From contig NZ_JAGGOW010000037.1 in assembly GCF_018614135.1 (NCBI RefSeq), forward strand, positions 1-33,873: DNA of 33,873 bases, given 5' to 3'. The notes under the pieces are model-generated. The model worked only from the letters and a program-made list of their open reading frames with translations, was not told the DNA's origin and did not search any database. Positions 94 to 28,796 of the stretch are shown piece after piece. Position numbers and translations under genes: made by a program. Position 1 is the first letter of the stretch. Each line of letters opens with the position of its first letter. This DNA is from Streptomyces sp. ISL-66. GTDB taxonomy: Bacteria > Actinomycetota > Actinomycetes > Streptomycetales > Streptomycetaceae.

Positions 94-1866
94 TCAGCTC
101 TCGCCGGCGGCACGGACCGCCTGCGGTGCCTCTTCGCCCGCTCCGTCGGCAGGGGCGGCGCCCTCGTCACCGCCGGCCCATTCGGGCTGCCGCGGCCGCT
201 GGGGCAGCAGGAACGTCAGCAGGAAGCCCAGGACGATGACGCCCACTTCGTACCAGAGGACCTTGCCGGTCGCCTTGGCGTAGCCCTCCTCGCGCGCCTT
301 CACGGACGCGTCGGCCAGCGCCTTGCCGACCTTCTCGGCCGCGCCGGCGGGCACGGCCGACTCGGGGACGATCTGCTTGCAGGCCGCGGGTACCAGGCCC
401 GAGTCGCCCTCGTCCGAGCTCGCCTTCGCACAGGCACGGAAGTTGACCGCGATCTGGTCCTGGGCGGACGCCGCCACTCCGACGGCGGCGAGCTCCTTGC
501 GCAGTTGTGGGAGCGCGGCGTCCGCGCCCGCCACGGCCTGCGAGGTGAGCAGGTTGAAGAAGAGGACGCCGATCACGGCGACACCGGCCGCCGCGCCCAG
601 CTGGTCGGCGGTGCTGAGGACGCCCGAGCCGGAACCCGCGTGCTCCACCGGCACCCCGCCGAGGACGATGTCCACGACCGGGGAGATGACGAAGCCGAGG
701 CCGAGGCCGAGCACCGTGAGCGAGGGGGCCAGGTTCCAGCCGCCCACGTCGGCGCCGTAGTGGTTGATGGTCCAGATCAGGGCGACCATGCCGACGCCCA
801 TGATCACCATGCCGATGCTGAGCACCTTGCGGCCCATCTTGAGCGCGAGCACCGCGGAGAAGGAAGCGGTGATCATCGCGCCGAAGGAGAACGGGATGGT
901 GGCCAGACCGGAGGCCAGCGGCGAGAAGCCGAGGCCGACCTGGAGGTACAGGGTGAAGGGGAAGAACAGACCGGCGATGATCGCGAAGAAGCTCAGCATC
1001 ACGACGAGGCCGGCCACGAAGGACCGCTCCTTGAAGAGGCTGGGCTCCACGAGCGCCGAGCCGTCCCGCGCCGCCTTGCGGACCTCGTACACGCCGAAGA
1101 CCACGAACAGCGGGATCGAGCAGGCCATCGCGATGAACGTCCACGCGGGCCAGCCGGATTCGCCGCCCTGGATCAGCGGGAACAGCAGCGCCAGCAGGGC
1201 GGCCGTGATCAGCGCGACGCCGACCAGGTCCAGCCGCTTGACCTGCTCGGAGCGCGATTCGCGCACGTACATCGCGACACCGATCAGCGCGATGATGCCG
1301 ATCGGCACGTTGACCAGGAAGATCGGCCGCCAGGACCAGCCGAACAGGTCCGCGTTGACCAGGATGCCGCCGAGCAGCGGGCCGATCATCGCGGCGATCC
1401 CGGACAGGGCACCGAACAGGCCGAAAACGGCCGCTCGTTCCTTCGGCGGGAACGCCACCTGGAAGATCGAGAGGCCTTGTGTCATCACCATGGCGCCGCC
1501 GAAGCCCTGAAGCACCCGGGCGGCGATCAGCATCTCCGTGCTCTGCGCGATGCCGCACAGCAGCGAAGCGAGCACGAACGAGACGATGCCCGCCGTCAGC
1601 AGGCGTTTGCGTCCGAGCATGTCGCCGACCCGGCCGACCGTGATCAGGCTGAGCGCGAAGGTGAGGGTGTAGGCAGCGGCAACCCACTGGAGCGCGGCCT
1701 TGCCCGCTCCCAGATCGGTCTGCAGCACGGGAAGCGCCACGTTCACGATCGTCGTGTCGATCAGGTCGAGGGCGATGGCCACGAGGATCACGGTGGCCGC
1801 GCGCCACCGTTGCGGATCGGGCTCCTTCTCCCCTTCTGGGTACACCTTGTTCTCCGCCTCGGTCAC
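94..1866 (-). CDS. MFS drug exporter, DHA2 (14-TM, EmrB/QacA-like) type
   Basis: A 590-aa integral membrane protein, probably a proton-driven exporter of the cluster product or a related toxic compound. Visible signatures are the DHA2 start motif LDLIDTTIVNVALP (about residues 33-46), motif A GRVGDMLGRKR (78-88), and a motif C-like stretch ending in GPLLGG in the fifth helix. Repeated hydrophobic segments follow to about residue 560, and the C-terminal tail is hydrophilic. The GTG start at 1866 is chosen because AAGGAG lies 8 bases upstream; the gene then reads VTEAENKVYPEG. It diverges from the hydrolase at 2222, and the 169-bp palindromic element sits between the two promoters. Substrate cannot be told from sequence; self-resistance or export is inferred from position. 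Confidence 0.9.
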   Translation of the reverse strand: MTEAENKVYPEGEKEPDPQRWRAATVILVAIALDLIDTTIVNVALPVLQTDLGAGKAALQWVAAAYTLTFALSLITVGRVGDMLGRKRLLTAGIVSFVLASLLCGIAQSTEMLIAARVLQGFGGAMVMTQGLSIFQVAFPPKERAAVFGLFGALSGIAAMIGPLLGGILVNADLFGWSWRPIFLVNVPIGIIALIGVAMYVRESRSEQVKRLDLVGVALITAALLALLFPLIQGGESGWPAWTFIAMACSIPLFVVFGVYEVRKAARDGSALVEPSLFKERSFVAGLVVMLSFFAIIAGLFFPFTLYLQVGLGFSPLASGLATIPFSFGAMITASFSAVLALKMGRKVLSIGMVIMGVGMVALIWTINHYGADVGGWNLAPSLTVLGLGLGFVISPVVDIVLGGVPVEHAGSGSGVLSTADQLGAAAGVAVIGVLFFNLLTSQAVAGADAALPQLRKELAAVGVAASAQDQIAVNFRACAKASSDEGDSGLVPAACKQIVPESAVPAGAAEKVGKALADASVKAREEGYAKATGKVLWYEVGVIVLGFLLTFLLPQRPRQPEWAGGDEGAAPADGAGEEAPQAVRAAGES

Positions 1867-1927
1867 GGTGGCTCTCCTTGATAGACGAGTGGCCGTCAGC
1901 AGTGTGGCGACGTCCGCTCGAGCCGCG

Positions 1928-2096
1928 CTAGTGCCGCGTCAGGCAACGTTTGCCCGTCAAGGAGCGGCGTCCGGTGCGTGCTCTCGGCGTGCCGGCCGGA
2001 AGCCCTCGTACTGGACGTACTTGGGCTTTCGGCCGGTGCGGCGAGAGTGCGTGCCGGACGCCGCGACGGGGCGAACGTTGCCTGACGCGGCACTAG
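1928..2096. mobile_element. MITE-like palindromic element with perfect 23-bp terminal inverted repeats
   Basis: Bases 1928-1950 are the exact reverse complement of 2074-2096, and both outer ends are CTAG. The inner arms (about 1966-2005 and 2023-2062) are also largely complementary, so the whole 169 bp can fold into one long imperfect hairpin around a GTAC...GTAC centre near 2013-2022. No transposase is encoded. The ends can be read either as 23-bp terminal repeats or as 19-bp repeats (TGCCGCGT...) flanked by a duplicated CTAG target, as made by some IS families. It lies in the 355-bp gap between two divergent genes (1867-2221); the rest of that gap holds no other convincing element. From memory, similar palindromes occur between genes in Streptomyces; this was not checked. 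Confidence 0.75.
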
Positions 2097-2221
2097 AGAG
2101 CGTGCCGACTGGTTCCGGCCACGCCGGCGGCCCCCGGCCGGGCTCCATCGGGAGTCGAGGAGGCACCCCGACCATGCCCCCGGGCAGCGGCGCCGGCCGC
2201 TCCGGAAGGGGACCTGCGGAC

Positions 2222-2917
2222 ATGAGGCTGTACCTGCTGAGGCTGGGCACCATCGCCGGACTGGAGGCGCCGGTACCCGGCTATCTGATCCGTACCGACG
2301 AGGGCGTCAACGTCCTCGTCGATACCGGCGCCCCCGTCGACCCGTCGCCCGGTGCCCGCATCCGCGTGGACGCCGGCCAGGACGTGGTGACCACGCTCGC
2401 CTCGCTCGGACTGACCGCCGACGACATCTCCTACGTGGTCTGCTCGCACCTGGACCCCGACCACTCCGGCTTCCACGCGTCCTTCCCCGGCGCCGAGTTC
2501 GTCATCCAGCGCGAGCACTACGAGCTCGCCCGCTCCGGCGGCGATCCGCGCTTCGAGGCCACCCGCGCGCTGTGGGACCTCCCGGGGCTGAACTACCGCA
2601 CCGTGGACGGCGACACCGAACTGCTGCCCGGCATCGAGCTGCTGGAATCCGGCGGCCACGTCCCCGGCCACCAGTCGGTCCTGGTGCGCCTGCCCGAGAC
2701 CGGCCCGGTGCTGCTGGCCGTCGACGCGATCCCCATGGCCATCGCCATGGACCCGGACGACCGGCCCGTCTTCCCCTTCGACCAGGACGAGAAGGCGGTC
2801 CGGGAGAGCACCCGCAAGCTCATCGGGGTCGCCTTCGACGAGAACGCCCTGATCGTCCACGGCCACGACGCCAAGCAGTGGGAGTCGCTGCGCGTGGCCC
2901 CCGAGTACTACGCGTAG
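2222..2917 (+). CDS. Metallo-beta-lactamase-fold hydrolase (N-acyl homoserine lactonase-like)
   Basis: A 231-aa cytoplasmic protein with the fold and layout of AiiA/AttM-type lactonases. The metal motif is S-H76-L-D78-P-D80-H81-S-G, where the usual second His of HxHxDH is Asp. Later ligand candidates are the His residues in GGHVPGHQS, the Asp in LAVDAIP and the His residues in IVHGHD. The ATG at 2222 is chosen for an AAGGGGA ribosome site about 9 bases upstream and because it begins the fold directly (MRLYLLRLG). The next gene starts 10 bases after the stop, so the two form an operon. In this cluster it could open a lactone, hydrolyse a thioester or ester, or act on the product; quorum quenching is not implied. 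Confidence 0.85.
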   Translation: MRLYLLRLGTIAGLEAPVPGYLIRTDEGVNVLVDTGAPVDPSPGARIRVDAGQDVVTTLASLGLTADDISYVVCSHLDPDHSGFHASFPGAEFVIQREHYELARSGGDPRFEATRALWDLPGLNYRTVDGDTELLPGIELLESGGHVPGHQSVLVRLPETGPVLLAVDAIPMAIAMDPDDRPVFPFDQDEKAVRESTRKLIGVAFDENALIVHGHDAKQWESLRVAPEYYA

Positions 2918-2927
2918 GAGGAACGGC

Positions 2928-3254
2928 ATGAGCGGCGAACGCATCCGCGTGGTCATCTACCTCCGCGCGCCCGAGGGCGAAGCGGAGCAGTTGGAGAAGA
3001 CCTACCGCGAGATCAGCTGGGTACGGGGCGAGGGCGCGGGCACCGCGATCGCGGGCCTGGTCCGCAGCGAGCTGCTGCGGGACGTCGACCGGCCCGGGGA
3101 GTACCTGCTGCACAGCGAGTGGGAGACCCTCGAGGACTACCGCACCTGGCAGTTCGGACCCGACCACAAGGACAACCCCTCGGCGCTGCGGCCCTACCAG
3201 GACCGCTCCCGCGGCCGGCACTACGCCGTCTACGGGATCACCTCCGAGGACTGA
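2928..3254 (+). CDS. Small dimeric alpha-beta barrel protein, antibiotic biosynthesis monooxygenase (ABM)-like
   Basis: A 108-aa protein of the size and pattern of the ABM/ferredoxin-like dimeric barrel family. It has a first beta strand (IRVVIYLRAP), a helix (EAEQLEKTYREIS), strands including YLLHSEWETLEDYRTWQFG, and a final HYAVYGITSED strand. The W-E-x-x-E-D-Y-R-T-W segment resembles the core of this fold. Members oxidise aromatic or quinone rings without cofactors, or act as cyclases or heme/dye-binding proteins, so the reaction cannot be named. GGAGGA lies 5 bases before the ATG. It shares an operon with the upstream hydrolase and is closed by the hairpin at 3272-3307. A role on an aminophenol or quinone intermediate is inference. 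Confidence 0.7.
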   Translation: MSGERIRVVIYLRAPEGEAEQLEKTYREISWVRGEGAGTAIAGLVRSELLRDVDRPGEYLLHSEWETLEDYRTWQFGPDHKDNPSALRPYQDRSRGRHYAVYGITSED

Positions 3255-3271
3255 CCCCGTACGGAACGCAC

Positions 3272-3307
3272 CGGAGGCCGCCCGAGCACCCGCTCGGGCG
3301 GCCTCCG
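3272..3307. terminator. Bidirectional intrinsic-type hairpin
   Basis: GGAGGCCGCCCGAGC (3273-3287) pairs perfectly with 3292-3306 around a 4-base ACCC loop; 3272 and 3307 add one more pair. It lies between two converging operons (ABM-like gene ending 3254, cupin ending 3349), so it probably ends both. There is no U tract, as is usual in Streptomyces. Confidence 0.85.
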
Positions 3308-3348
3308 TGCCGTAGGGCATCAGTGCGGCGTCAGTGCGGCATACGGCG

Positions 3349-3756
3349 TCAGCTGACGGCCTCGGCCGGTTCCACCGGCGCCTCCCACACCACCAGCATG
3401 AGCGCGCCCTGCTCGGTGCGCGGCGCGTGCACGCTGCCCGGAGGCATGACGAGCATCGAATGCGCCGGGTGGCGGCCGTCCTCGGTGATCAGCTCTCCCT
3501 CCAGCACCAGGATGATCTCGAAGCTCGTGTGCCGGTGCGGGGCCGCGCTGGCGCCGGGGTGGTAGCGGACCAGGGAGGCGGCGGGTCCGCCCGGCCCGGT
3601 CTGCGCGGTCGTGTAGAGCGGGAACACCTCCACCCCGACCCGGCCGTCGGCGGTCATCGGCGTGAACTTCAGCTTCCGCTCCAGCTCGCCGGGCCGGTCC
3701 AGGCCCTCGACCAGCAACGGCGCGGTGGCCGAAGTGTCGTTCTGCGTGACGGTCAT
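3349..3756 (-). CDS. Single-domain cupin protein
   Basis: A 135-aa protein with one cupin barrel. Motif 1 is PGASAAPHRHTSFE with metal-ligand candidates H74, H76 and E80; motif 2 is MPPGSVHAP with H110. A full ligand set suggests a metal-bound enzyme (dioxygenase, isomerase or hydrolase) rather than a dead sensor, but the substrate is not readable. Its ATG overlaps the TGA of the ligase gene upstream (ATGA, 3753-3756), which indicates translational coupling and a shared pathway. It is the last gene of the long minus-strand operon before the hairpin at 3272-3307. Confidence 0.85.
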   Translation of the reverse strand: MTVTQNDTSATAPLLVEGLDRPGELERKLKFTPMTADGRVGVEVFPLYTTAQTGPGGPAASLVRYHPGASAAPHRHTSFEIILVLEGELITEDGRHPAHSMLVMPPGSVHAPRTEQGALMLVVWEAPVEPAEAVS

Positions 3757-5660
3757 CTCGTCGGTTCCCCAGTTCCTCGCGGTGCCACGGATGGCGACGG
3801 TGTAGCCGGTGCCGCCGCAGTGCCGGTGGAGCCGGGGTCGTTCCCCGGGCCGGTGCCGGTGCCGGCACCGGTGCCCCCGCCCCCGCCCCCGCCCGCGCCG
3901 GCACCGGTGCCGGTGCCCGACGTGTACGGGGCCGGGCCCGCGGGCCCGGCGAACAGTTCCCGTACCTCCCGGCGGCGGATCTTGGACGAGGCCGTGCGCG
4001 GCAGACCGGCGGCGAAGCGCAGTCGCTCCGGCCGGGCCACCGAGGACAGGGCCAGGGCGGCGTGCGCCAGGATCCGCGCGGCCAGCGCCCCGTCCGGCTC
4101 GTGCCCGGGAGCGGGCACCACCACGGCCAGCGGCACCAGACCGCCCTCGGGATGGTCCACCGGGACCACGGCCACCTCGGCGACCGCGGGATGGGTGCGC
4201 AGCGCCGCCTCCGCCTCGTACGGCGAGACCCGGTGCCCGTACGACTTGAACACGTCGTCGCGCCGCCCCAGCACCCTGATCCACCCGTCCGGCGTCCGCT
4301 CCCCGAGGTCCCCGGTCGCGTACCGGCCCTGCCCGAGCACCCGTTCGGTGCGCTCGGGATCCTCCAGGTAGCCGGCCATCACGCCGACGGGCCGCTCGCC
4401 GTCGAGCTCGACGCAGATCTCGCCGGACCCGGAAGGCTCCCCGCTGTCGGGATCGCACAGGACGATCCGGTAGCCGGGCAGCGGCCTGCCCAGCAGACCG
4501 GCCCGGGGCGCGGTGCCCGGGGTGGTGCCGATCAGGGCGGTGGTCTCGGTCTGCCCGTAGCCGTCGCGCACCGGGACCCCCCAGGCGGAGCGGATCTCGT
4601 CCGCGAGGCCCGGGGGCAGCGGCTCGCCCGCGCTGGTGGCCTCGCGCAGCCGGGGCGCGGCCGCGCCGAGGTGCGGCCGCAGGGCCTGCCACAGGCTCGG
4701 CGGGGCACAGAAGCTGTCCGCCGCCCGGTCGCGCAGGATCCCCGGGAGCAGGGCAGGGTCGGGCGGGCCTTCGGGCAGCGCCACGATGGTGGCCTCGGCG
4801 TTCCAGGGCACGAAGAAGCTGCTCCAGGAGTGCTTGGCCCAGCCGGGGGAGGAGACGTTGACGTGCCGGTCGCCGGGCAGCAGCCCGTTCCAGTAGAGGC
4901 TGGAGAGGTGCCCGGCGGGATAGCTGAGGTGCGTGTGCGCCACCAGCTTGGGCGCCGAGGTCGTCCCCGAGGTGAAGTAGCAGAAGGCCACGTCGTTCGA
5001 CGGGGTCGGCCCGTCCGGGAAGAACCGGCCCGTCTCGCCGAGCGCGTCGCGGTAGTCGGTCCATCCCGGGACCCGGCCGGACACGCAGATCCGCAGCCCG
5101 GGCACCGGCACGCCCGCGAAGACGCGCGCGCTGGAGGCCCGGCACACCACGTGGTCGATGCGGCCCCGGCCGACCCGGTCGGCGGCCTCGGCGGCGGTCA
5201 GTTCCGGATGGCAGGGCACCAGCACCGCGCCGGTCTTCATCCCGGCGAGCAGCACCTCCCACAGCTCCCGCTGGGTGCCGAGGACCACCATGACGCGGTC
5301 GCCGCGGCGCACACCGAGGCCGGTGAGCCATACGGCGACCGCGTCGGAGCGCCGGGACAGCTCCTCGTACGAGACGCTCTCGGCGCCGCCGTCGCGGTCC
5401 AGGAGCTCGAGCGCGGGCCGGGCATTGCCCGCCGCGACCACGTCGAACCACTCCAGCGCCCAGTTGAAGTGCTCCGGACGGGGCCAGCGGAAGAGCTCGG
5501 CCGCGGTGTCGAGGTCACTGCGGTGGCGCAGCAGCAGGTCCCTGGCCGCCCGGAAGCCGTCGGAGGCCGCGGTACGCCGCGCCGCCCAGTAGGGGGCGGC
5601 GGCGTCCTCAACGGTGGGCGCGGGGCGTGTCCGCGCCGGTAGGGGCGTCCGCGCGCTCAC
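3753..5660 (-). CDS. AMP-forming acyl-CoA synthetase-like ligase with a low-complexity C-terminal tail
   Basis: A 635-aa adenylate-forming enzyme closest in look to the benzoate/medium-chain acyl-CoA synthetase branch. Landmarks are the P-loop YFTSGTTSAPK (about 225-240), YGQTET (about 367), YATGD (about 445) and the C-terminal catalytic Lys in PRTASSKIRR (about 560); the SPGWAKHSWSSFF stretch is typical of the branch. The GTG at 5660 overlaps the stop of the fusion gene (GTGA) and has GGAGGA upstream. From about 575 the protein runs into a Gly/Thr/Ala/Pro-rich tail not normal for the family, and its end overlaps the cupin start. It should activate a carboxylic acid as AMP ester and then CoA ester or amide. 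Candidates are 3,4-AHBA or the product of the mutase-flavoprotein. CreM, a ligase homologue of cremeomycin synthesis, instead uses ATP with nitrite, so that chemistry stays open. Confidence 0.88.
   Translation of the reverse strand: MSARTPLPARTRPAPTVEDAAAPYWAARRTAASDGFRAARDLLLRHRSDLDTAAELFRWPRPEHFNWALEWFDVVAAGNARPALELLDRDGGAESVSYEELSRRSDAVAVWLTGLGVRRGDRVMVVLGTQRELWEVLLAGMKTGAVLVPCHPELTAAEAADRVGRGRIDHVVCRASSARVFAGVPVPGLRICVSGRVPGWTDYRDALGETGRFFPDGPTPSNDVAFCYFTSGTTSAPKLVAHTHLSYPAGHLSSLYWNGLLPGDRHVNVSSPGWAKHSWSSFFVPWNAEATIVALPEGPPDPALLPGILRDRAADSFCAPPSLWQALRPHLGAAAPRLREATSAGEPLPPGLADEIRSAWGVPVRDGYGQTETTALIGTTPGTAPRAGLLGRPLPGYRIVLCDPDSGEPSGSGEICVELDGERPVGVMAGYLEDPERTERVLGQGRYATGDLGERTPDGWIRVLGRRDDVFKSYGHRVSPYEAEAALRTHPAVAEVAVVPVDHPEGGLVPLAVVVPAPGHEPDGALAARILAHAALALSSVARPERLRFAAGLPRTASSKIRRREVRELFAGPAGPAPYTSGTGTGAGAGGGGGGGTGAGTGTGPGNDPGSTGTAAAPATPSPSVAPRGTGEPTR
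3851..3921. repeat. Short tandem/inverted repeats (GGTGCC, GGCACC, GCCCCC units) inside the ligase 3' end
   Basis: The plus strand shows runs of GGTGCCGGTGCCGGCACCGGTGCC followed in turn by CCCGCC-type repeats and then the complementary hexamers again. This encodes the Gly/Thr/Ala tail of the ligase. The repeats are self-complementary and prone to slippage. Confidence 0.7.
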
Positions 5661-8600
5661 CGCTGGTCCTCCTCGTCCTCGGCGGCGAGGACGCCCCGCC
5701 AGCGCTTGCCGACGACCAGGCCGCTGTACTCGCCGCCCTGCCTGCGGGCCCCGGACAGCGCGTCCTCGGCGATCGCGTCGGCGTCGTTCAGGAACTCGCC
5801 CCAGACCCCGGGCCGCGCGCTGCCCACCTGGGTGAACCAGCGGGTGAACTCGGCCGGGATGCCGAGGACGTAGACGCCCTCCTCGGGCTTGCCGTCGGCG
5901 CGCACCGGGTGGAAGGGGGATCCGGTGACGTGCACCCCGCCGGTGGCGAACTCCTCGCCGTCGTGGTCCCGGTTGACGTAGGCGGTCAGCAATCCGGACG
6001 CGTAGAGCCGCGAGTTCAGACCGCCGGGCCGGCGGCGCAGGTCCGGTTCGGGGATCCGGGCGTCGACCACCGCGTCCAGCGAGGTGAGGCTGCCGGCGAC
6101 CTGCGGGGACTCGATGGTGAACCGTCCGGCGCCGGAGGCGGCCGCCGGGTCGGCGGCGAACCGCACGCCCGGCCCCGCGATCCGCAGCACGCCCGACTCC
6201 ATCAGCGCGAGGACCTCGTACAGGCGGACCATCGGCGGCCCCGTCGTCAGCTGGGAGACGAGCGGGACGAACTCCTGGAGGAAGTCCCGGCTGTGGGAGG
6301 CCGGCGTGAGACCGGAGAAGTCCACCGCGGTGCGGATCACCCCGCGGACATCGCGGATGGCGTCCAGGGCGGCCTTCACCGGGCCCTCGGAGTTGCCCTC
6401 CCGGGCCAGCTCCAGGTCCTTGAGCAGGAAGGCGGTCAGTTCCCGCTGGAACTCCTCGGCCCCGGCGAAGCGGCGGCCGCGGAACGGCCGCGCCCAGGCC
6501 TCGATGTCCACCGGGGGCAGGTCGCCCATGCCCCGGTGGGCGGCCACCCGGGCCAGTACGGCCCCCGGGTCGCCCGGGTCGTGCAGGACGACGTCCTGCA
6601 CCTCGTTGGCGAACTTCTCGGCGATGTCGGGGCCGTAGAGGCGCTTGAGGTGGGTGGAGTAGTAGACCAGCCCCACCTCGGTCAGCAGCCAGGGCAGCAC
6701 GTCGCGGCGGAAGTCCAGGCGTCCGCGGTCGCGCAGGGCGCGCATCCGCTCGTGCGTGAACAGCCGCGGTCGGTAGGTGTGGTGGGGGCCCTTCTGGTTG
6801 CGGCCGCGCGCCAGCAGCGGTACCCCGCCCCGCGAACCCGCGATCAGCTGCGGCTCCCGGCCGCTGGGCAGGTAGCGCAGCCCTCCGGCCCCGCTGCCGC
6901 CGTTCGCGACGTAGCGGCCGCCGCGTCCGGTGGTGAGCGCGGAGACCACGTCGTAGAAGGACAGCCCGAGGCCGAGGATGCCGACGCGGGACCCCGGCTC
7001 GATGCCGTCCAGCGGCATGTCGATCGCGGAGTCGCCGCGCACGTACCGCAGGTGGGGGTGGTCGTCGGCGAACGCGGCCAGCTCCTGCTGGTCGGAGCGG
7101 AGTTCGGGCAGCGGGTGCCCGGTCGTCAGCACGACGCGGTCGGCCCGCAGGTGGCGGCCGTCGCTCAGGGACAGCAGGTACCCGCCGTCCGGCTCCTTCT
7201 CCATGGTTTCGACGGACTGGCCGGATATCCGGCGCAGCCGCAGGACGTCGGCCGGGAGGCCCTGCTCGACGCGGTCCAGCGCGTAGGAGAGGTAGCGGCC
7301 GTAGACGGCGCGCGAGGCGCATTCGTCCGGGTCGGCCGCCTCCGGGTCGACGGTGCGCCACCACTCGTACAGCGAGGGCCCCGCGCCGGCCCGGTGCGGG
7401 CCGCCGTCGGGCCGCCCCGAGAAGATGGTGACCTCGCCGGAGACCGTGTTCATCAGGGACCAGTCGGGCTGGTCGGTCCGCCAGATCCGCCCGGTGCCCA
7501 CCTGGTGGGCGTCCACGGCGTAGACCTCGACCGGACGCCCCGGCGGCTTCTCCGCGAGACGGGCGGCGAGCCGTTCGAGCACGGACAGGCCCCGCGGCCC
7601 GGCGCCCACCACGGCGACGCGGTACGGCTCCTCGTCCTTGGCGTCGGGCAGTTCGAGCGGGGCGCCGGTCCAGTCGGCCTCCGCGGCGGCGTCCAGACCC
7701 AGCAGGTCGTGGCGGTCCGCGGTGTACCGGAGCATCTGCAGGAGGCGGTCGGCGGTGACCGCGTTGCGGGGCGTCGTGCGGCTGGGCGCCGGCAGCGGCA
7801 GCCGGCCGGTCCGGGTCCAGTACAGGCGGCCCTCGCCGTCGATGGCGGCCTGCGTCAGGCCCTGGTTGTCCTCGTGCAGGCAGAAGGGCACGTCCAGGAT
7901 CCCGGCGGAGAAGGCCCGTACCAGCGCCTCGCCGACGTCGCCGCTCAGCGAGAGGGTCGCCTCGATCATGGCGCGGGCCTCGGCCAGCACCTCGCCCGGG
8001 TCGACCTCGTGGCCCCAGGGGACCTGGCTCTCGGACCGGGCGCGGGAGGCGAGGGCCGAGGCGGAGCGCAGCGAGGCCAGGTTCTCCTCGACGGTGGGCA
8101 GCCGGATGGCCTCCACCGGGGTCTTGACGATCAACCGCTGGGCGCCGCCCCGGACGGCGAGTTCGGCGCTGCGGTCCATCAGGAGCTGCGCGCCCTGCCG
8201 GGTGCCGGGGAAGACGCCCATGTACGTGTAGAGCACGATGTGCCAGTCGACGCCCTCAGGCAGCCATTCGGCGGCCAGCATGCGCAGGGCGGCGAGCGCC
8301 TCGACGTCCTGGCGCACGTCGGTCTGCTGGGCGTAGCTCAGCGAGACGCTCGGCACGCCCTGCTGGGCGAAGAAGAGGGCTTCGAGCAGGCTCATCGCGA
8401 CGAGGAGGGACGGCGGGCACAGCTGGCCCATCAGGCAGCCGCCGAAGGTCTCCAGGTGGGCGCGCAGGCCGCCCGCGCGGCTGAGCTCCGCGAACTCCGC
8501 TGTCGCCTGGCGCCAGTTGCTGACCGAGGTGGCGAGCGGGGTCCGCCCGTAGGGCAGGCAGTACGAGACCGGGCCGCCCTCGCTCGCGGACAGCCCGGCC

Positions 8601-8998
8601 CCGACCATCGTCTGGAAGATCGCCCGGGGGGTGGCCGAGCCGTGCCGGACCTGGACGGGCCGGCCCGCGCCCTCGGCGGCCACCCTGACGGTGGTCCGCG
8701 GTCCGTGGACCACGATGGGGAAGCCGTTGAGCCCGTTGCCCGCGGCGAGCGCGGCCCGCGCGTGGTCGTGTTCGCCGACGCGGGTGTAGGCGTCGAGGGT
8801 GATGGTCCCGACCGTGGGGAAGGGCAGCGCACGGACGGCGCGCAGTCCGGCCGCCATCGTGTCGGCGTCCGCCATGCCCATCCGCGGCTGCACCACCAGC
8901 CGGCCCGAGGCGGCCGACCGCCGTACGAACTCGCCCAGATCGGCGGGGCGGCCGCCCCCGGCAGGATGGTTGCCGCCGTGCGGAAGCATCTGCGTCAT
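5657..8998 (-). CDS. Fusion protein: glutamate mutase large (epsilon) subunit + FAD/NAD(P)-dependent oxidoreductase
   Basis: A 1113-aa two-part enzyme. Residues 1 to about 440 match the TIM-barrel large subunit of coenzyme-B12 glutamate mutase. The substrate residues known from the Clostridium cochlearium enzyme all have counterparts: R39, R73 and R118 (the arginine claw), E140, Y146 and Y150 in SEGGPVSYCLPYGR. It should therefore interconvert L-glutamate and 3-methylaspartate with the small subunit at 9245-9778. From about 455 a flavoprotein begins: VAVVGAGPRGLSVLERL binds FAD, VGILGLGLSFYDVVSAL (about 670) is a second dinucleotide site, and the C-terminal GIPAEFTRWFTQVG is typical of the COG4529-like FAD/NAD(P) family. 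There is no stop or frameshift between the parts. Its ATG overlaps the stop of a 46-codon ORF, and its stop overlaps the ligase start. Inferred role: oxidation, perhaps N-oxidation, of the mutase product. Confidence 0.88.
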   Translation of the reverse strand: MTQMLPHGGNHPAGGGRPADLGEFVRRSAASGRLVVQPRMGMADADTMAAGLRAVRALPFPTVGTITLDAYTRVGEHDHARAALAAGNGLNGFPIVVHGPRTTVRVAAEGAGRPVQVRHGSATPRAIFQTMVGAGLSASEGGPVSYCLPYGRTPLATSVSNWRQATAEFAELSRAGGLRAHLETFGGCLMGQLCPPSLLVAMSLLEALFFAQQGVPSVSLSYAQQTDVRQDVEALAALRMLAAEWLPEGVDWHIVLYTYMGVFPGTRQGAQLLMDRSAELAVRGGAQRLIVKTPVEAIRLPTVEENLASLRSASALASRARSESQVPWGHEVDPGEVLAEARAMIEATLSLSGDVGEALVRAFSAGILDVPFCLHEDNQGLTQAAIDGEGRLYWTRTGRLPLPAPSRTTPRNAVTADRLLQMLRYTADRHDLLGLDAAAEADWTGAPLELPDAKDEEPYRVAVVGAGPRGLSVLERLAARLAEKPPGRPVEVYAVDAHQVGTGRIWRTDQPDWSLMNTVSGEVTIFSGRPDGGPHRAGAGPSLYEWWRTVDPEAADPDECASRAVYGRYLSYALDRVEQGLPADVLRLRRISGQSVETMEKEPDGGYLLSLSDGRHLRADRVVLTTGHPLPELRSDQQELAAFADDHPHLRYVRGDSAIDMPLDGIEPGSRVGILGLGLSFYDVVSALTTGRGGRYVANGGSGAGGLRYLPSGREPQLIAGSRGGVPLLARGRNQKGPHHTYRPRLFTHERMRALRDRGRLDFRRDVLPWLLTEVGLVYYSTHLKRLYGPDIAEKFANEVQDVVLHDPGDPGAVLARVAAHRGMGDLPPVDIEAWARPFRGRRFAGAEEFQRELTAFLLKDLELAREGNSEGPVKAALDAIRDVRGVIRTAVDFSGLTPASHSRDFLQEFVPLVSQLTTGPPMVRLYEVLALMESGVLRIAGPGVRFAADPAAASGAGRFTIESPQVAGSLTSLDAVVDARIPEPDLRRRPGGLNSRLYASGLLTAYVNRDHDGEEFATGGVHVTGSPFHPVRADGKPEEGVYVLGIPAEFTRWFTQVGSARPGVWGEFLNDADAIAEDALSGARRQGGEYSGLVVGKRWRGVLAAEDEEDQR

Positions 8999-9135
8999 CG
9001 GGGCTCCTTCGTGGGCACCCCGGCCCTTGGGCCGGGAAGGGAGCGGAGCTCCTGTGGAGCGGGGCGGGTGGAACCGCCGCGCCGCCGGGGCGGAGCGGCG
9101 TTGTCAGTGCCGGGTACTGCGTTGATCGCGTGCAT
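8995..9135 (-). CDS. Possible small peptide gene (46 aa), coupled to the fusion gene
   Basis: An ATG at 9135, preceded by GGAAGGAAC about 6 bases upstream, opens 46 codons rich in Pro, Arg, Ala and Gly. The TGA overlaps the ATG of the mutase-flavoprotein gene (ATGA, 8995-8998). The third-position G/C share is about 80 percent, lower than neighbouring genes, and there is no recognisable domain, signal peptide or membrane segment. It may be a leader ORF that couples translation, a true small protein, or chance. It fills most of the 246-bp gap between the two mutase genes; the remaining 9136-9244 shows only a CTAG-containing stretch near 9229. Confidence 0.35.
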   Translation of the reverse strand: MHAINAVPGTDNAAPPRRRGGSTRPAPQELRSLPGPRAGVPTKEPR

Positions 9136-9244
9136 CCGAGGTGTTCCTTCCGTATCGAGCCGACGCCGGGTCGGCGCAGTCCGTCGGCCCGGACGTTCGG
9201 CTGCGCGCGCCTTCCCCGGTCACCGCACTAGGACGGGGCGGACG

Positions 9245-9778
9245 TCAAAGCGCTCTTCCCTCTGTCGCCCGGCGCGGCTCCGGCCTGGCCTCGGCGCCGC
9301 GCTCCGACGGCAAGGACAGGGCGGCCTGCGGGCTCCCGCCGGGCAGCGCACCGAGCAGCCGGCTGACCAGGGAGGGGTCCGCGGTGTCGGTGAACACCGC
9401 GTCGAATCCGGCGTCTATGAGCTCCTGGGCGGCCCGGTCGCCGGTGTCGCCCGTGATCCCCAGCTTGCCGCCGATGATCACCGGGGTCTCCCCGGCCACG
9501 GGATCCGCGCGGAGCGTCCGTATCATCCGGGCGCCGTCGAGCCGGCCGTGGCCGTTGACGGTGCTGATGACCACCGCGTCGGGGCGGATCCTGCGCACCG
9601 AGTCGATCAGCAGCTGGTCGGGGACGCACGGTCCGAGATTGACGACCTCATTGCCCATCTCCTGGAGCAGGAGCTGTAGGAAGACGAGATTCCAGGTATG
9701 GGAATCCGAAGAGACCGTAGACAGCAGGATCCGCCGCCGTCCGTCTCGTGGGACCACCGTCCTCATATGCGTGCTCAT
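9245..9778 (-). CDS. Glutamate mutase small (sigma) subunit, cobalamin-binding
   Basis: A 177-aa B12-binding domain protein, partner of the fused large subunit. The base-off/His-on signature is present in variant form: SSDSHTWN carries the Asp and the cobalt-ligand His of DxHxxG but has Asn for the last Gly. ISTVNGHG stands for the SxL segment, and VIIGGKLG gives the GG motif. The first 130 residues cover the whole domain; the remaining tail (PSERGAEARPEPRR) is hydrophilic and probably disordered. The ATG at 9778 has GAGAGAG directly upstream; an in-frame ATG four codons later is possible. It lies in one operon with the gene ending at 9818 (39-bp gap). With the large subunit it should make 3-methylaspartate. 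Confidence 0.88.
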   Translation of the reverse strand: MSTHMRTVVPRDGRRRILLSTVSSDSHTWNLVFLQLLLQEMGNEVVNLGPCVPDQLLIDSVRRIRPDAVVISTVNGHGRLDGARMIRTLRADPVAGETPVIIGGKLGITGDTGDRAAQELIDAGFDAVFTDTADPSLVSRLLGALPGGSPQAALSLPSERGAEARPEPRRATEGRAL

Positions 9779-9817
9779 CTCTCTCTCGTGGACTGATGAA
9801 GGACAGGCAACGACGCG

Positions 9818-10777
9818 TCAGCGCAGGGTGACGAGCTTCCACATGCCTTCGAACGCCCGCTTGATCAGCGTTTCGCGGTTACTGATGAAGGAGGTCACCA
9901 GGTACTGCCCGGGCTCAAGTGACTGGGACAGCACGGCGGTCGAGCCGGGGGAGAGGGGGGTGATTCCGGACGGAACGCCGCTGAACGGGTACACGGGCGG
10001 CTGCTGGCCGTGGGCCAGCGCGTCCATGCACGCGGAGACGTCGGCGGCGCTGGCCCCCGCGGTCACCCGCAGGAACATCACTTCGTTGAGCTGGGAGGTC
10101 TGGTTCACGACGGTGAACTCGCCCCGCGCCCCCAGGTCGCTGCCGATCAGGTAGCGGCCGGCCGGCCCCTCGTCGTACGCGGCGATGAGCTCGGGGGCCC
10201 AGCGCGGAACCGTGACGGAGGGGCGGGCCGGCGCGCCGACCCGGATGCTGCGCACGAGCTCGGGGCGGGCCGGGTCCAGGAGCGTGTAGTCGAGCAGGTG
10301 GTACGTGCCGGGGGTGAGGATCCAGGAGATCTCGATCTTCCCGCTGGCCTTGGTGACGGCGGGCCCGCCGAAGTACTGGGCCTCGGAGTCGATGAGCGCC
10401 AGCGCGGCGTGCCGCTCCGCCGGATCCTTGGAGGTGGCGGCCGTCTGGTAGTGCGTCAGGAAGGCCGCCAGGGTGACGCCGGCGCGCAGCCGGACGAGCC
10501 CCAGCGGGCGCTGGACCTTCTCGTCCGTGGTGCTCGCCACGAGCGTCACCGGGCCCGCCGGCACCCGGTCCGTGGTCAGCCGGATCCCGTCGGCGCCGGC
10601 CACGGCGCCGATCACGGCCGTGTCGGTCCGGTGGCGGCCGTCCTGCCCGCCGTGGGCGAGGGCGGGGGCGGCCGGCAGCAGGGTCGCGGCCCCCGCGCCC
10701 ATGCCGATCAGAAGTCTGCGTCGTGCGAGTCCGTGTCCAGAACCCTGCGAGTCCGCGGCGCTTGGGGTCGCGTGCAT
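9818..10777 (-). CDS. Tat-exported protein of unknown function with two similar beta-rich halves
   Basis: A 319-aa protein I cannot assign to a family. The N terminus has a twin-arginine type signal (ARRRLLIGMGAGAATLLPAA, cleavage near APALA). The mature part appears to hold two related halves of roughly 110 and 120 residues. Each has a strand-rich start (GPVTLVAST; GEFTVVNQT), an R-x-x-A-G-V/A-x-x-A turn into a helix, and a closing LxPGxYxL/VxxY/F strand. That layout recalls a duplicated cupredoxin-like sandwich, but no clear copper ligands are visible. The ATG at 10777 is chosen for GGAGGAACC just upstream. It is the first gene of the minus-strand operon containing both mutase genes and diverges from the SDR. 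Tat export suggests folding with a cofactor before export. Confidence 0.8.
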   Translation of the reverse strand: MHATPSAADSQGSGHGLARRRLLIGMGAGAATLLPAAPALAHGGQDGRHRTDTAVIGAVAGADGIRLTTDRVPAGPVTLVASTTDEKVQRPLGLVRLRAGVTLAAFLTHYQTAATSKDPAERHAALALIDSEAQYFGGPAVTKASGKIEISWILTPGTYHLLDYTLLDPARPELVRSIRVGAPARPSVTVPRWAPELIAAYDEGPAGRYLIGSDLGARGEFTVVNQTSQLNEVMFLRVTAGASAADVSACMDALAHGQQPPVYPFSGVPSGITPLSPGSTAVLSQSLEPGQYLVTSFISNRETLIKRAFEGMWKLVTLR

Positions 10778-11027
10778 CTGCGGTTCCTCCTCCGTCCCGG
10801 CCGTGCCGGCCGCGACGCTGCTGGCACCCGGGGGTGCGGATTGGTTGTCCGGGATGCGGCATGCTCCGCAGAGCGCCTCAAGAGCGACTTCAGGCCTCAT
10901 CGAGAGACGGGCCCCTCACGGGGCCGCGGGACCTCCCGTACGAGAGGCCGATGCAGGCGTTCTCTAGCGGACTTCGGCACGATGCGGCGGGTCACGAGAT
11001 CCGGCGACACGCCCCGCAGGAGGCTCC

Positions 11028-11780
11028 ATGTCCACCCGTACCGCGGTCATCACCGGTGCGAGCAGCGGGATCGGTGCCGCGACCGCGCGCCGGCTCGCCG
11101 CCGAGGGCTACCGGGTGGTGCTCACCGCGCGGCGCAAGGACCGCGTCGAGGCGCTCGCCGAGGAGCTGGCCGCGGCCGGACACGAGGCCGTGGCGCACGC
11201 CCTGGACGTCACCGACCGCCGGGCGGTACGGCACTTCGCGGACGGCCTGGACCGGGTGGACGTCCTGCTGAACATCGCGGGCGGGGCGATCGGCACCGAG
11301 ACCGTCGCCGAGGCCGACCCGGACGACTGGACGGCGATGTTCGCGGTCAACGTCGTCGGGGCCCTGCAGATCACCCAGGCGCTGCTGCCCGCCCTCGTCG
11401 CCTCCGGCGACGGCACCGTCCTCGTCCTGTCCTCCACGGCCGGACTGCTGCCCTACGAGGGCGGCGGCGGCTACGTCGCCGCCAAGCACGGCGCGCACGC
11501 CCTGGCCGGCACGCTGCGGCTGGAACTGTGCGGCAGCCCCGTACGGGTGATCGAGGTCGCGCCCGGTCTCGTCCGCACCGAGGAGTTCGCGCTCAACCGG
11601 TTCCGCGGCGACGCCGAGCGGGCCGCCGCGGTGTACGACGGCGTCGCGCGGCCGCTGACCGCCGAGGACGTCGCCGACACCGTGACCTGGGCGGTGACCC
11701 GTCCCGGTCACGTCAACATCGACCTGCTGGTGGTCCGGCCGCGCGCCCAGGCGGCCCACCACAAGATCCACCGCGGCTGA
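11028..11780 (+). CDS. Short-chain dehydrogenase/reductase (SDR)
   Basis: A 250-aa classical SDR. It shows TGASSGIG (9-16) for NAD(P), NIAGG in place of NNAG, the catalytic S136 in SSTAG, and Y149-V-A-A-K153. The ARRKDR segment after the second strand, with two Arg, suggests NADP(H). The overall pattern resembles the YdfG/serine dehydrogenase group of broad alcohol dehydrogenases. AGGAGG precedes the ATG. It diverges from the Tat-exported gene at 10777 across a 250-bp gap and is followed after 103 bp by the multicopper oxidase. Substrate unknown; it may oxidise or reduce a side-chain carbonyl of the product. Confidence 0.9.
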   Translation: MSTRTAVITGASSGIGAATARRLAAEGYRVVLTARRKDRVEALAEELAAAGHEAVAHALDVTDRRAVRHFADGLDRVDVLLNIAGGAIGTETVAEADPDDWTAMFAVNVVGALQITQALLPALVASGDGTVLVLSSTAGLLPYEGGGGYVAAKHGAHALAGTLRLELCGSPVRVIEVAPGLVRTEEFALNRFRGDAERAAAVYDGVARPLTAEDVADTVTWAVTRPGHVNIDLLVVRPRAQAAHHKIHRG

Positions 11781-11883
11781 GGACCGTCCCCCGCGCGGCC
11801 GGTGCGCACCATCGGCGCTCTAGCGCGGGGCGAGCCGACTCGGCCTGAATGCGCTGAGGAGACACCCGGGAAGAGGAGACAGC

Positions 11884-13323
11884 GTGCTGACGCGCAGACA
11901 ACTGATCAAGGCAGGCGCAGCCACCGGCCTGATCGCCGCGGCGGCCCCCGCCGGGGTCGCCCTCGCCGGCACCACGGCCGCGGCCGGACCGGCGAGCCTC
12001 TTCGCCGTACCGCTGCGGATACCCAAGGTGCTGCGCCCCACCTCCCGCGGGCGCGGCGGCGGTTCCCGGGCCGGGTACGACGTCTACCAGCTGACGACCC
12101 GCGAGGTGGAGAAGACCATCTTCGCGGGCACCCGGACGAAGATGCGCCTGTTCAACGGCGAGCTGATGCCGGTCATCCGGGCCACCCGCGGCCGGCCCGT
12201 GGTCATCGAGCAGGTCAACGCCCTGGACGTGCCCTTCTCCATGCACCTGCACGGAGGCCACGTCCCGGCTTCCTCGGACGGCCACCCCAACCACCAGGTG
12301 TCGCCCGGCGGCAAGAGGGTCTTCTACTATCCCAATGACCAGCGCGCTTCGACGATGTGGATGCACGACCACTCCCACGACGCGCACGCCGAGAACATCT
12401 ACCGCGGCCTCGCCGCCTCGTACATCCTCACGGACGACTTCGAGGCGGGGCTCCCGCTGCCCAAGGGCCGGTACGACGTGCCGCTGCACCTGCGCGACGC
12501 GCAGTTCGCCGAGGACGGCTCGCTGGTCTACGAACCGGACGGCTTCATGACCCGTTCGACCATCCTGGTGAACGGCGCCCCGCGCCCGTACTTCGAGGTC
12601 GCCGCGCGCAAGTACCGCTTCCGGCTGGCGAACACCTCCAACGAGCGCGCGTTCCTGCTCCAGCTCGGCCAGGGCGACGAGATGACGCACATCGCCTCCG
12701 ACGGCGGTCTGCTGCCCGCCCCGGCGTCCGCGCGCGTGCTGGAGATCTGGCCCGCCGAGCGCCAGGAGATCGTCATCGACTTCTCGCGCTACCCGGTCGG
12801 CTCGAAGGTCGTCCTGCGCAACCTCATCGGCTTCGCCGGCGAGGCCCCCGAGGTCATGCGCTTCGACGTCGTGCGCACGGCCGCCGACCCGAGCCGCGTG
12901 CCCGCCACCCTGCGGGCGAACCCGGACATCGGCACGCCCACGGTGGAGCGCTCGTTCGTCATGAACTTCGACCCGGCGACCGGCCACCACCTGATCAACG
13001 GCCAGCACTTCGACATCAACCGGGTGGACCTGCGGCCCAAGCTCGGGGTCACCGAGCTGTGGACCGTCGAGAACACCGACGTCCGCTTCGGCATCCCGCA
13101 CTCCATGCACACGCACCTGGAGCACTTCCAGGTCGTGGAGCGCGACGGCGTGGCGCCCGCGCCCGGCGAGGCGGGCCTGAAGGACACCGTCACGGTCATG
13201 CCCGGCAAGACCGTCAAGTTCAAGATCAAATTCACCGACCACGCCGGTCTGTTCATGTTCCACTGCCACCTGATGGGCCATCTCAACATGGGAATGATGG
13301 GCCAGATGGCCGTGGAGAACTGA
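11884..13323 (+). CDS. Tat-exported multicopper oxidase (CotA/phenoxazinone synthase-like)
   Basis: A 479-aa laccase-type enzyme that would couple one-electron oxidation of aromatic substrates to reduction of O2. The signal is MLTRRQLIKAGAATG with RR and a hydrophobic core. Copper ligands are all in place: HLHGGH (121-126), WMHDHSH (159-165), HSMHTH (406-411) and HCHLMGHLNMGM (460-471), with C461 and axial M471 for type-1 copper. The GTG at 11884 is preceded by AGGAGA. The P450 follows after 65 bp. In a cluster with 3,4-AHBA genes an o-aminophenol is an obvious substrate, and phenoxazinone synthase is a known multicopper oxidase of that type. Export suggests that any such step happens outside the membrane. 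Confidence 0.9.
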   Translation: MLTRRQLIKAGAATGLIAAAAPAGVALAGTTAAAGPASLFAVPLRIPKVLRPTSRGRGGGSRAGYDVYQLTTREVEKTIFAGTRTKMRLFNGELMPVIRATRGRPVVIEQVNALDVPFSMHLHGGHVPASSDGHPNHQVSPGGKRVFYYPNDQRASTMWMHDHSHDAHAENIYRGLAASYILTDDFEAGLPLPKGRYDVPLHLRDAQFAEDGSLVYEPDGFMTRSTILVNGAPRPYFEVAARKYRFRLANTSNERAFLLQLGQGDEMTHIASDGGLLPAPASARVLEIWPAERQEIVIDFSRYPVGSKVVLRNLIGFAGEAPEVMRFDVVRTAADPSRVPATLRANPDIGTPTVERSFVMNFDPATGHHLINGQHFDINRVDLRPKLGVTELWTVENTDVRFGIPHSMHTHLEHFQVVERDGVAPAPGEAGLKDTVTVMPGKTVKFKIKFTDHAGLFMFHCHLMGHLNMGMMGQMAVEN

Positions 13324-13388
13324 CCCGCCCGAGCCCGCCCGCCCCTGAACGCGCCGCACGTCAACGAATCCTCTCTGGGAGGAAGGCT

Positions 13389-14582
13389 GTGTCCGACGAC
13401 ACCGGGGGGCTGCGCTTCCCGTTCCAGCTCAGTCAGCTCTTCACCCCGCCACCGGAATTCCAGCAGCTGCGCGAGACCTGTCCGGTGGCCCGGGTGGAGC
13501 TGCCGACCGGGGACTGGGCCTGGATCGCCACGCAGTACGAAGACGTGCGCGCGGTACTCAACGACGCCCGGCTGAGCCGCGCGGCCGCCACCCGCCCGGG
13601 TGCCCCGCGGCTCGGCCCGGCCAGTCCCGAGCCGGACTCCATCATGGCGATGGACCCGCCCGACCACACCCGGCTGCGCCGGCTGCTCGCCTCGGTGTTC
13701 ACCGGCCGGCAGGCCGAGCGGATGCGCGAGGGCATCGTCCGCACCACCGAGGAACTCCTCGACGTCATGGAGGAGTCCGGGCAGCCCGCCGACCTGGTCC
13801 CGATGCTGGCCCGGCCGCTGCCCATCACGGTCATCTGCGACCTCCTCGGCGTCCCCGACGCCGACCGGGAGGCCTTCCGCGACTGGACCGACGCGGCGCT
13901 GACGCTCGCCCCGAGCGCCGCCGGCGCCGTCACCGACGCCAGGACCCGGCTGGCCGAGTACCTCGCGGAGCTCGTCGAGGCGAAGCGCCGGGGGCCCGGC
14001 GAGGACCTGCTCAGCACCCTGGTCGAGGCGCAGGCGCAGGAGCGGCTGAGCCAGAACGAGCTGATCGCCGCCGCCGCGACCCTGATCACCGCGGGCTACC
14101 ACACCGTGGCCAACTCCTTCGCGAACTCGGTGGTGGCGCTGCTGCGCCACCCCGAACAGCTCGACCCGCTGCGCGGAGCGGAGCGGTTCCCGCTCGCCGC
14201 CGTGGAGGAACTGCTGCGCTGGACCCCCGGGCCGGTCAGCGGCGGCACGATCCGGATCGCCACCGAGGAGGTCAAGCTCGGCTCCGTGATCGTCAAGCCC
14301 GGTGAGGCCGTCATCCCCTCGACGGCCTCCGCCAATCGGGACGGGGCGGTCTTCCCCGGCGCGGACGAGCTGGACCTCACCCGGCCGGAGAACCGGCACA
14401 TCGCCTTCGGCCACGGCATTCACCGCTGCCTGGGCGCACCCCTGGCCCGCATCGAGCTCCAAGTGGCCTTCGGCGCCCTGCTGCGCCGCTTCCCGGGGCT
14501 GCGTCTCGCGGTCGCGCAGGAGGAGCTCGTCTGGGGCGGCGGCATGATCCGCGGGGTCAGCTCGCTACCCGTCGCCTGGTGA
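13389..14582 (+). CDS. Cytochrome P450
   Basis: A 397-aa soluble bacterial P450 of the CYP105/107-like size class. It shows the I-helix AGYHTVANS (where AGxET/DT is more usual, so the acid before Thr is His here), ExxR at E274-L-L-R277, and the heme loop FGHGIHRCLGAPLAR with C347. The GTG at 13389 follows GGGAGGAAG. It is probably co-transcribed with the multicopper oxidase. Its last 26 bases overlap the 3' end of the convergent MarR gene. It needs ferredoxin partners, none of which are in the window. Likely hydroxylation or oxidative coupling on the aromatic product; the substrate is not readable. Confidence 0.92.
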   Translation: MSDDTGGLRFPFQLSQLFTPPPEFQQLRETCPVARVELPTGDWAWIATQYEDVRAVLNDARLSRAAATRPGAPRLGPASPEPDSIMAMDPPDHTRLRRLLASVFTGRQAERMREGIVRTTEELLDVMEESGQPADLVPMLARPLPITVICDLLGVPDADREAFRDWTDAALTLAPSAAGAVTDARTRLAEYLAELVEAKRRGPGEDLLSTLVEAQAQERLSQNELIAAAATLITAGYHTVANSFANSVVALLRHPEQLDPLRGAERFPLAAVEELLRWTPGPVSGGTIRIATEEVKLGSVIVKPGEAVIPSTASANRDGAVFPGADELDLTRPENRHIAFGHGIHRCLGAPLARIELQVAFGALLRRFPGLRLAVAQEELVWGGGMIRGVSSLPVAW

Positions 14583-15078: not shown

Positions 15079-15102
15079 GTGGCACCTCCGGGAGCACCAT
15101 TT

Positions 15103-15120: not shown

Positions 15121-15176
15121 TTCCCATCCATGGAGAAGTCCCACGTGCAGGAATAGCTTAACGATGAGGGGAAGCC

Positions 15177-28789: not shown

Positions 28790-28796
28790 CCGTCGT

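Follow-up and report, generated by a model that had tools for sequence, protein, structure and literature searches.

The stretch of DNA analysed here (the window) is the 33,873 nucleotides of contig NZ_JAGGOW010000037.1 (positions 1 to 33,873) from Streptomyces sp. ISL-66. On its minus strand, a gene at 5657..8998 encodes a single protein in which the large (epsilon) subunit of a glutamate mutase precedes a class B-type flavin N-monooxygenase, as identified from the open reading frame, Pfam, PDB matches, full-length homologues, and AlphaFold and Foldseek. An earlier note made from the letters by a model had described a frame open across both parts without giving the strand. The frame indeed occupies exactly this interval, starts with ATG and runs for 1113 codons with no internal stop, and it has a coding-type base composition, with a G+C fraction of 0.96 at the third codon position. 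Three smaller minus-strand genes accompany it. Upstream lies a B12-binding small (sigma) subunit of 177 amino acids (9245..9778; profile matches and open reading frame), which the note had also seen and which is real. Downstream lie an adenosine monophosphate (AMP)-forming ligase of the ANL superfamily (3753..5660; profile and structure matches), whose start overlaps the fusion stop by 4 bp, and a small metal-type cupin of 135 amino acids (3349..3756), whose start overlaps the ligase stop by 4 bp.

The fusion protein is divided between two Pfam domains, Met_asp_mut_E at residues 23-413 (E = 1.7e-88; 297.5 bits against a Pfam cut-off of 26.6) and NAD_binding_9 at residues 462-628 (E = 1.9e-35). 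In a sequence search of solved structures, the best match was 8CP2 over residues 458-1081 (E = 5e-96), followed by the clostridial glutamate mutase entries 6h9e and 1cb7 over residues 30-404. We designated residues 23-413 (7760..8932) as the mutase half and residues 458-1081 (5756..7627), with FAD and NADP sites and a partly kept arginine cluster, as the flavin half. According to PMC10404684, 8CP2 is the L-aspartate N-hydroxylase of Streptomyces sp. V2 and binds flavin adenine dinucleotide (FAD) and NADP(H). This match supports the two dinucleotide-binding sites read previously, and it makes N-oxidation in parallel to CreE and FzmM, as the note had proposed, a chemistry of the right kind. AlphaFold modelling from 34 fusions gave a mean pLDDT (predicted local distance difference test) of 83.9 and a pTM (predicted template modelling score) of 0.59. 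Most of both halves is confident in this model, and a Foldseek search with it retrieved 8cp2 first (TMt 0.92-0.93) and then 1cb7 (TMt 0.72) and 6h9e (TMt 0.73). The two folds were thereby borne out by superposition, but the placement of the halves relative to each other is not confident.

All ten substrate- and cofactor-site residues examined are kept in the mutase half. The six substrate residues listed in the note were confirmed by alignment to 6h9e (R66/R39, R100/R73, R149/R118, E171/E140, Y177/Y146 and Y181/Y150), and N123, Q147, K326 and E330 are retained in addition. We presume roles at these sites for Y181 and the latter four. Across 118 fusions, R39 (6h9e numbering) is retained in 117 and the other nine residues in all 118; 17 rows of split enzymes and 10 mutase-only or dispersed rows have the same residues wherever a letter is present. 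PMC9545868 describes the arginine claw formed by R66, R100 and R149 and the parts played by E171 and Y177.

In 52 of 52 loci, the fusion gene, or the mutase gene where the halves are split, is immediately preceded by the B12 gene. The B12 subunit of the window has DSHTWN in place of the DxHxxG motif. Among 65 gene calls for this subunit, 62 have DxHTWN, one has DxHMWN, two end before the motif, and none has DxHxxG. The DxHTWN type is present too in loci that have the mutase but no N-oxygenase, and it seems, from these sequences, to mark this mutase branch. In the window, 246 bp (8999-9244) separate the stop of the B12 gene from the ATG of the fusion, with AAGGAG preceding the start, whereas the two genes share 4 bp in L011, the closest relative.

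The fusion is widespread and occurs in many actinomycetes. A protein search, in which the 7991 candidates sharing most words were scored, found 240 relatives, of which the best 120 were listed. Among the 119 listed homologues besides the query, 118 exceed 950 amino acids with the same domain order and one has 735 amino acids; both Pfam domains are present in all of them, and P0037 and P0038 start with a B12 domain in addition. Because these 118 are full-length fusions, the gene of the window is no assembly or frame artefact. A locus scan with one genome per species confirmed 528 stretches, the best 80 of which were kept and give 75 loci reaching at most 10 kb on each side, with genes called by a purpose-made codon model, not a standard annotator. 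The halves are fused in 36 of the 75 loci and encoded by adjacent genes in 16; in L047 and L082 they occur within one locus but apart (dispersed). One fused locus, open for 1067 amino acids, is from Pseudomonas frederiksbergensis, and the other named fused loci are mostly from Streptomyces and other Actinomycetota. All locus counts refer to this best-matching list, in which related strains are possible, and do not represent independent events.

The flavin half and 8CP2 are identical at 244 of 587 aligned positions. R13, W51, N62, R266, R409, R412, R416 and R577 (8CP2 numbering) are retained, while R276, N413 and V571 are replaced by T741, G886 and F1055, respectively. In PMC10404684, the aspartate is held in an entry chamber of R13, R276, N413, R416 and R577, an N413E mutation kills hydroxylation, with a V571F mutation the KM for aspartate rises to 4 mM, and L-aspartate, but not L-glutamate, stimulates the enzyme. 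In the window, this chamber is incomplete, with R13, R416 and R577 kept and R276 and N413 changed. For comparison, we used 118 CreE-like proteins shorter than 760 amino acids, taken from the best 120 of 3756 relatives of the CreE-type enzyme encoded elsewhere in the same genome; this set does not cover all CreE diversity. L015, L041 and P0029, in which the FAD motif was missed by the pattern used, were omitted from the residue counts. Position 413 is Asn in 118/118 CreE-like proteins but in only one of 117 listed fusions, where Gly (53), Gln (32), Ser (16), Ala (10) and others (5) take its place. Position 571 is Val in 114/118 CreE-like proteins and Phe in 117/117 listed fusions, and position 276 is Arg in 118/118 and 65/117, respectively. 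Among the split enzymes, Phe571 is found in 17/17, Asn413 in 13/17 and Arg276 in 1/17; one of the peptide patterns of the locus scan, RWF[TM]QVGS, itself contains the Phe that replaces Val571, and position 571 is unbiased only in the protein search.

The full core set of R13, W51, N62, R266, R409, R412, R416 and R/K577 is present in 115 of 117 listed fusions, 16 of 17 split enzymes, 117 of 118 CreE-like proteins and 30 of 35 fused loci (some contigs end early). It is present in only one of eight relatives of the flavin half that have no mutase gene at the locus; W51 is Tyr in seven of these eight, and three have a gap at R13. The acidic-substrate site goes along with the mutase, while the aspartate-specific parts differ, as is expected for an enzyme acting on 3-methylaspartate.

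A tree of the flavin half was calculated from 80 rows: 15 of the 118 CreE-like proteins, the CreE of the same genome and 8CP2, five of the 117 listed fusions, the window and the fused loci with more than 550 residues of the flavin half, 17 split enzymes, two dispersed and eight mutase-free rows (L052, L063 and L073 were omitted). The 17 CreE-like rows are split off by a branch with an SH-aLRT (Shimodaira-Hasegawa-like approximate likelihood ratio test) value of 100. The flavin half, for which the note had proposed a tree with CreE, thus stands apart from the CreE-like clade, although its nearest solved relative is an aspartate N-hydroxylase. With midpoint rooting, the split enzymes leave near the base of the non-CreE side, and the fused rows fall in one clade within which the mutase-free and dispersed rows are nested. 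The label "fused" requires four changes on this tree, three of which are forced by well-supported branches. The simplest reading, with a root that is a midpoint and not an inferred one, would be one fusion event followed by later separations. The tree and the key residues both place the flavin half in a clade of its own that accompanies the mutase, in keeping with an altered substrate such as 3-methylaspartate.

Some relatives of the flavin half occur in other contexts. L055, L056 and L058 encode relatives (52-53%) without a mutase; the L056 gene is adjoined by genes for an HMGL-type synthase, a prephenate dehydratase, aconitase subunits, an aminotransferase and TauD, and L055 and L058 have gene families in common with this neighbourhood. 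P0212 is a protein of 1121 amino acids that combines lyase-type domains (Lyase_1 and ADSL_C) with a CreE-type NAD_binding_9.

The B12 subunit, the mutase/N-oxygenase, the AMP-forming ligase and the metal cupin form a conserved unit. The ligase is the next gene downstream of the N-oxygenase in 47 of 52 fused or adjacent loci, with a median overlap of 4 bp. Neighbours were counted only in loci 18 kb or longer (28 of 36 fused and 14 of 16 adjacent); these 42 have the B12 gene in 42, the ligase in 42 and the cupin in 41. A LysR-like regulator, so named from its sequence, is found in 30 of them, an HPP membrane protein in 27 (16/28 fused and 11/14 adjacent) and a vanadium-haloperoxidase-like protein in 26. 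Six loci (L023, L025, L026, L032, L041 and L047) have no cupin gene of their own; there, the cupin forms the C-terminus of the ligase. Neither ligase nor cupin was found in the eight mutase-free N-oxygenase loci.

In the window, the ligase is the 3' part of a long open frame (3753-7364). We rejected a 700-amino-acid open frame at 3349-5451 as a gene, because it reads the ligase out of frame over its N-terminal part and coincides with the cupin at its end alone. The ligase retains the ANL motifs, including E372 and K560. It also has a PGWAKHSW motif, in which K276 and H277 are retained by at least 95% of 52 sequences. Among NCBIfam models, MbcS fits best (253 bits against a cut-off of 850), and the best solved relatives of the ligase are a 4-hydroxybutyrate-coenzyme A (CoA) ligase (8biq) and 3ETC. 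An identification as CreM was given up, with 28% identity over 213 residues (44 bits) to the CreM-type candidate of the same genome; members of the ligase family show 25-29% to that candidate. In the cupin, the predicted metal ligands H74, H76, E80 and H110 are invariant in 28 sequences. At L020 (5684-8968) and similar loci, genes for the HPP membrane protein, the vanadium-haloperoxidase-like protein and a rhodanese adjoin the unit. L047 (574-21692) combines LanB-like, PALP, ornithine-cyclodeaminase-like, ATP-grasp ligase and cytochrome P450 genes with the N-oxygenase, a ligase-cupin fusion and the mutase subunits, and its N-oxidised unit may be carried by a peptide-like product.

From the gene structure, domains, conserved residues, four-gene unit, ligase-cupin fusions and tree, we infer each reaction of the following route. 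The fusion protein and its B12 partner would isomerise L-glutamate to 3-methylaspartate, which would then be N-oxidised at the flavin site. The ligase would convert a carboxylate to an acyl-AMP, from which the acyl group would pass to the hydroxylamine oxygen of the N-oxidised product; the resulting ester would then be rearranged by the cupin, most likely to an N-N bond, as in two-part hydrazine synthetases. The latter consist of an adenylating part resembling methionyl-tRNA synthetase (MetRS) and a zinc cupin, either separate or joined in one protein, and their substrate comes from a flavin N-hydroxylase (PMC11705231 and PMC8664883). In PyrN and RHS1 the cupin ligands follow H/D-x-H-x3-E...H (PMC8664883); those of PyrN, H50, H52, E56 and H90, form the same HxHxxxE...H set as the four predicted ligands here. 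The comparison of the ligase and cupin with hydrazine synthetase parts serves as a working analogy, not as an assignment to that group. Judged from conserved residues and the tree, the N-oxidation of 3-methylaspartate is probable. The overall route from glutamate through 3-methylaspartate and its N-oxidised form to activation and rearrangement by the ligase and cupin is, by a slightly smaller degree of confidence, our favoured explanation. The N-N step, drawn by analogy, is a tentative proposal. A shade more doubtful still is the broadest version, a widespread actinobacterial machine for N-N bonds in which the fusion makes N-hydroxy-3-methylaspartate and an ANL ligase with a cupin replaces the MetRS-like/cupin hydrazine synthetases. 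The note's interpretation holds as regards the N-oxygenase kinship and a separate clade that goes with the mutase; it had missed the ligase and cupin, the absence of a lyase gene nearby and the wide spread. It had also suggested that 3-methylaspartate is handed directly to the flavin site inside the protein, and we infer from the split-gene versions that the system can do without the fusion.

Several observations weigh against this route. The orientation of the two halves is unsettled (pTM 0.59), which gives no structural support for the hand-over. The pocket argument is not uniform, with Asn413 mostly kept in the split enzymes and Arg276 in more than half of the listed fusions. The mutase half scores below the cut-off of the NCBIfam equivalog TIGR01503 (183.1 against 390.1 bits) and is, by its sequence, a divergent branch of glutamate mutase large subunits, and the last glycine of DxHxxG is missing from its B12 partners. 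Unlike the adenylating part of known hydrazine synthetases, the ligase does not resemble MetRS; its nearest relatives are short-chain acyl-CoA synthetases. The HxHxxxE...H pattern is a general cupin set, and the N-N cupin RHS1 (5UQP) was neither among the four PDB profile matches of the cupin (E <= 0.01) nor among the best 50 of its 1768 fold matches. Finally, 11 of 24 genomes contain a creD-type match (E <= 1e-20); some of these matches may be a related cycloisomerase, and in these genomes a lyase may be encoded elsewhere.

The kinship of the ligase favours the main rival explanation, a nitro-acid or nitrite route, which we regard as a real but minor possibility. Here, 3-methylaspartate would be oxidised to 2-nitro-3-methylsuccinate, which would lose CO2 to give 2-methyl-3-nitropropanoate; the ligase would form its CoA ester, and nitrite or the nitro acid would be exported. 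The aspartate enzyme makes nitrosuccinate, which decarboxylates to 3-nitropropionate (PMC10404684), and the ligase is nearest to the MbcS type and other short-chain acyl-CoA synthetases, but the MbcS match is far under the curated cut-off. The HPP membrane protein of the long loci could be an exporter, as an HPP protein is a candidate nitrite transporter in plants (PMC4137279), although no member was found in the window or in the loci of its five closest relatives. This route leaves the almost invariable cupin and the ligase-cupin fusions unexplained.

Less likely is a ring closure, in which the ligase would activate the side-chain carboxylate of N-hydroxy-3-methylaspartate, the hydroxylamine oxygen would close a 4-methylisoxazolidin-5-one, and the cupin would isomerise or open the ring. 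General chemistry allows such a five-membered ring, and the PGWAKHSW motif with K276 and H277 could point to an anionic acid as substrate. Nothing in the sequences speaks directly for cyclisation, and no cyclase-type partner was recognised.

It is improbable that the flavin half still oxidises aspartate to nitrosuccinate while the mutase serves another branch. The protein belongs to the same family as the aspartate N-hydroxylases and keeps most of the arginine cluster. The same genome has a nitrosuccinate lyase above the NCBIfam cut-off (contig C220), and a lyase-type match was found in the 11 other genomes mentioned above. However, the C220 lyase adjoins the genome's own CreE-type enzyme. The aspartate-nitrosuccinate pathway depends on such a lyase. 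With the creD gene of this genome as query, no lyase gene was found in the 75 loci (E <= 1e-8, within the fetched stretches of at most 10 kb on each side), and 13 of the 24 genomes searched, from 25 named loci, gave no match at E <= 1e-20. Moreover, N413 is replaced in 116 of 117 listed fusions, though it is kept in 13 of 17 split enzymes. Mesaconic acid, a methylated fumarate, is non-reactive with Streptomyces cremeus CreD in the reverse direction (PMC13411527), which is in line with a CreD-free path. That one half is inactive and acts as a scaffold is very improbable; fusions are generally known to retain degenerate domains at times, but the catalytic residues of both halves are almost invariant in more than 100 fusions.

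Compared with the L-aspartate N-hydroxylases CreE, FzmM and that of Streptomyces sp. V2 (8CP2 and 8CP5), the whole flavin half aligns and W51, N62 and most arginines are shared. It differs in its separate clade, in the changes at N413, V571 and often R276, in being fused to or adjoining a B12 mutase, and in lacking a nitrosuccinate lyase gene in the 75 loci. With the glutamate mutase GlmE/GlmS (1CB7 and 6H9E), the system has in common the large-subunit fold, all ten checked residues and a separate small B12 subunit encoded upstream; here, the large subunit is fused to a flavoprotein, the B12 motif is DxHTWN instead of DxHxxG, and the mutase is presumably paired with an oxygen-consuming enzyme rather than a fermentation pathway. 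Our favoured route shares its parts with the hydrazine synthetases Spb40, PyrN and RHS1 and their partners, in which a flavin N-hydroxylase is combined with an adenylating protein and a metal cupin, the latter pair being joined or separate. Here, however, an ANL ligase takes the place of the MetRS-like adenylating part, and the N-hydroxylase resembles the aspartate enzymes rather than those for lysine or ornithine. The aspartate-nitrosuccinate (ANS) pathway of cremeomycin and its relatives (CreE, CreD and CreM) likewise has a related N-oxygenase and an ANL ligase, but in our loci no CreD gene is nearby, and the relationship between the ligase and the CreM-type candidate of the same genome is distant.

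These are known enzyme families in a new and widespread combination. If the favoured route is true, a B12-dependent radical rearrangement of a carbon skeleton is joined in one polypeptide to an O2-using flavin N-oxygenase, and a branched amino acid is fed into N-oxygen, and perhaps N-N, chemistry. To our knowledge, such chemistry is otherwise known only for aspartate, lysine, ornithine and a few others. The route would be a CreD-free relative of the nitrosuccinate pathway. The set of mutase, N-oxygenase, ligase and cupin would serve as a handle for tracing its product across many strains, two proteins would suffice for a simple test system, and the fused, adjacent and dispersed arrangements would make a good case for what a fusion gains. 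In agreement with the note, which knew of no described enzyme of this kind, we found none among the papers listed in searches of the open-access literature on glutamate mutase or 3-methylaspartate with N-oxidation, nitro or N-N chemistry, a body of work that leaves subscription journals mostly outside. A text search of PMC12154649, on heme enzymes for hydrazines, found no mention of methylaspartate, cupin or CreE.

Around the unit, a block at 94-19901 recurs in L011, L012, L013 and L017, and partly in L014, where the contig ends. It includes a major facilitator superfamily (MFS) transporter (94..1866, minus strand) and, on the plus strand, a short-chain dehydrogenase (11028-11780), a multicopper oxidase (11884-13323) and a cytochrome P450 (13389-14582), the last three being common to most of the closest relatives. 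A minus-strand gene at 9818..10702, which lies upstream of the B12 subunit, encodes a protein of unknown family that was found in 6 of the 75 loci, all close relatives; its N-terminus resembles what we take to be a twin-arginine translocation (Tat) pattern. No cobalamin riboswitch matched Rfam at the gathering threshold in the window, and promoter and terminator scans of 3200-11200 found none.

The right end of the window does not recur in the flanks (at most 10 kb) of the closest relatives. It carries genes for an aspartokinase, a DeoC-type aldolase, DHQS-II, an aromatic FAD hydroxylase and an O-methyltransferase (29970-33734 and 19994-22743) and for a tyrosinase with MelC1 (28797-30166). We take the aspartokinase, DeoC-type aldolase and DHQS-II to be a 3-amino-4-hydroxybenzoate (3,4-AHBA) set. 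A DHQS-II query, run without a positive control, gave no match in the genomes of the five closest relatives. With nine right-end proteins as queries, the 75 loci (flanks of at most 10 kb) gave no match to eight, and the aspartokinase matched only L080 and L085. We gave up the possibility that the fusion and the genes at 19994-33734 form one cremeomycin-like cluster on the basis of these DHQS-II and locus-query negatives, and the right-end genes probably constitute an aminohydroxybenzoate cluster of their own that the contig end truncates. On contig C220 (L010, 400-8727), the nitrosuccinate lyase, the CreE-type N-hydroxylase, an O-methyltransferase, an ANL ligase and an aromatic hydroxylase lie side by side near the contig start. 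This cremeomycin-like set may belong with the right end of the window.

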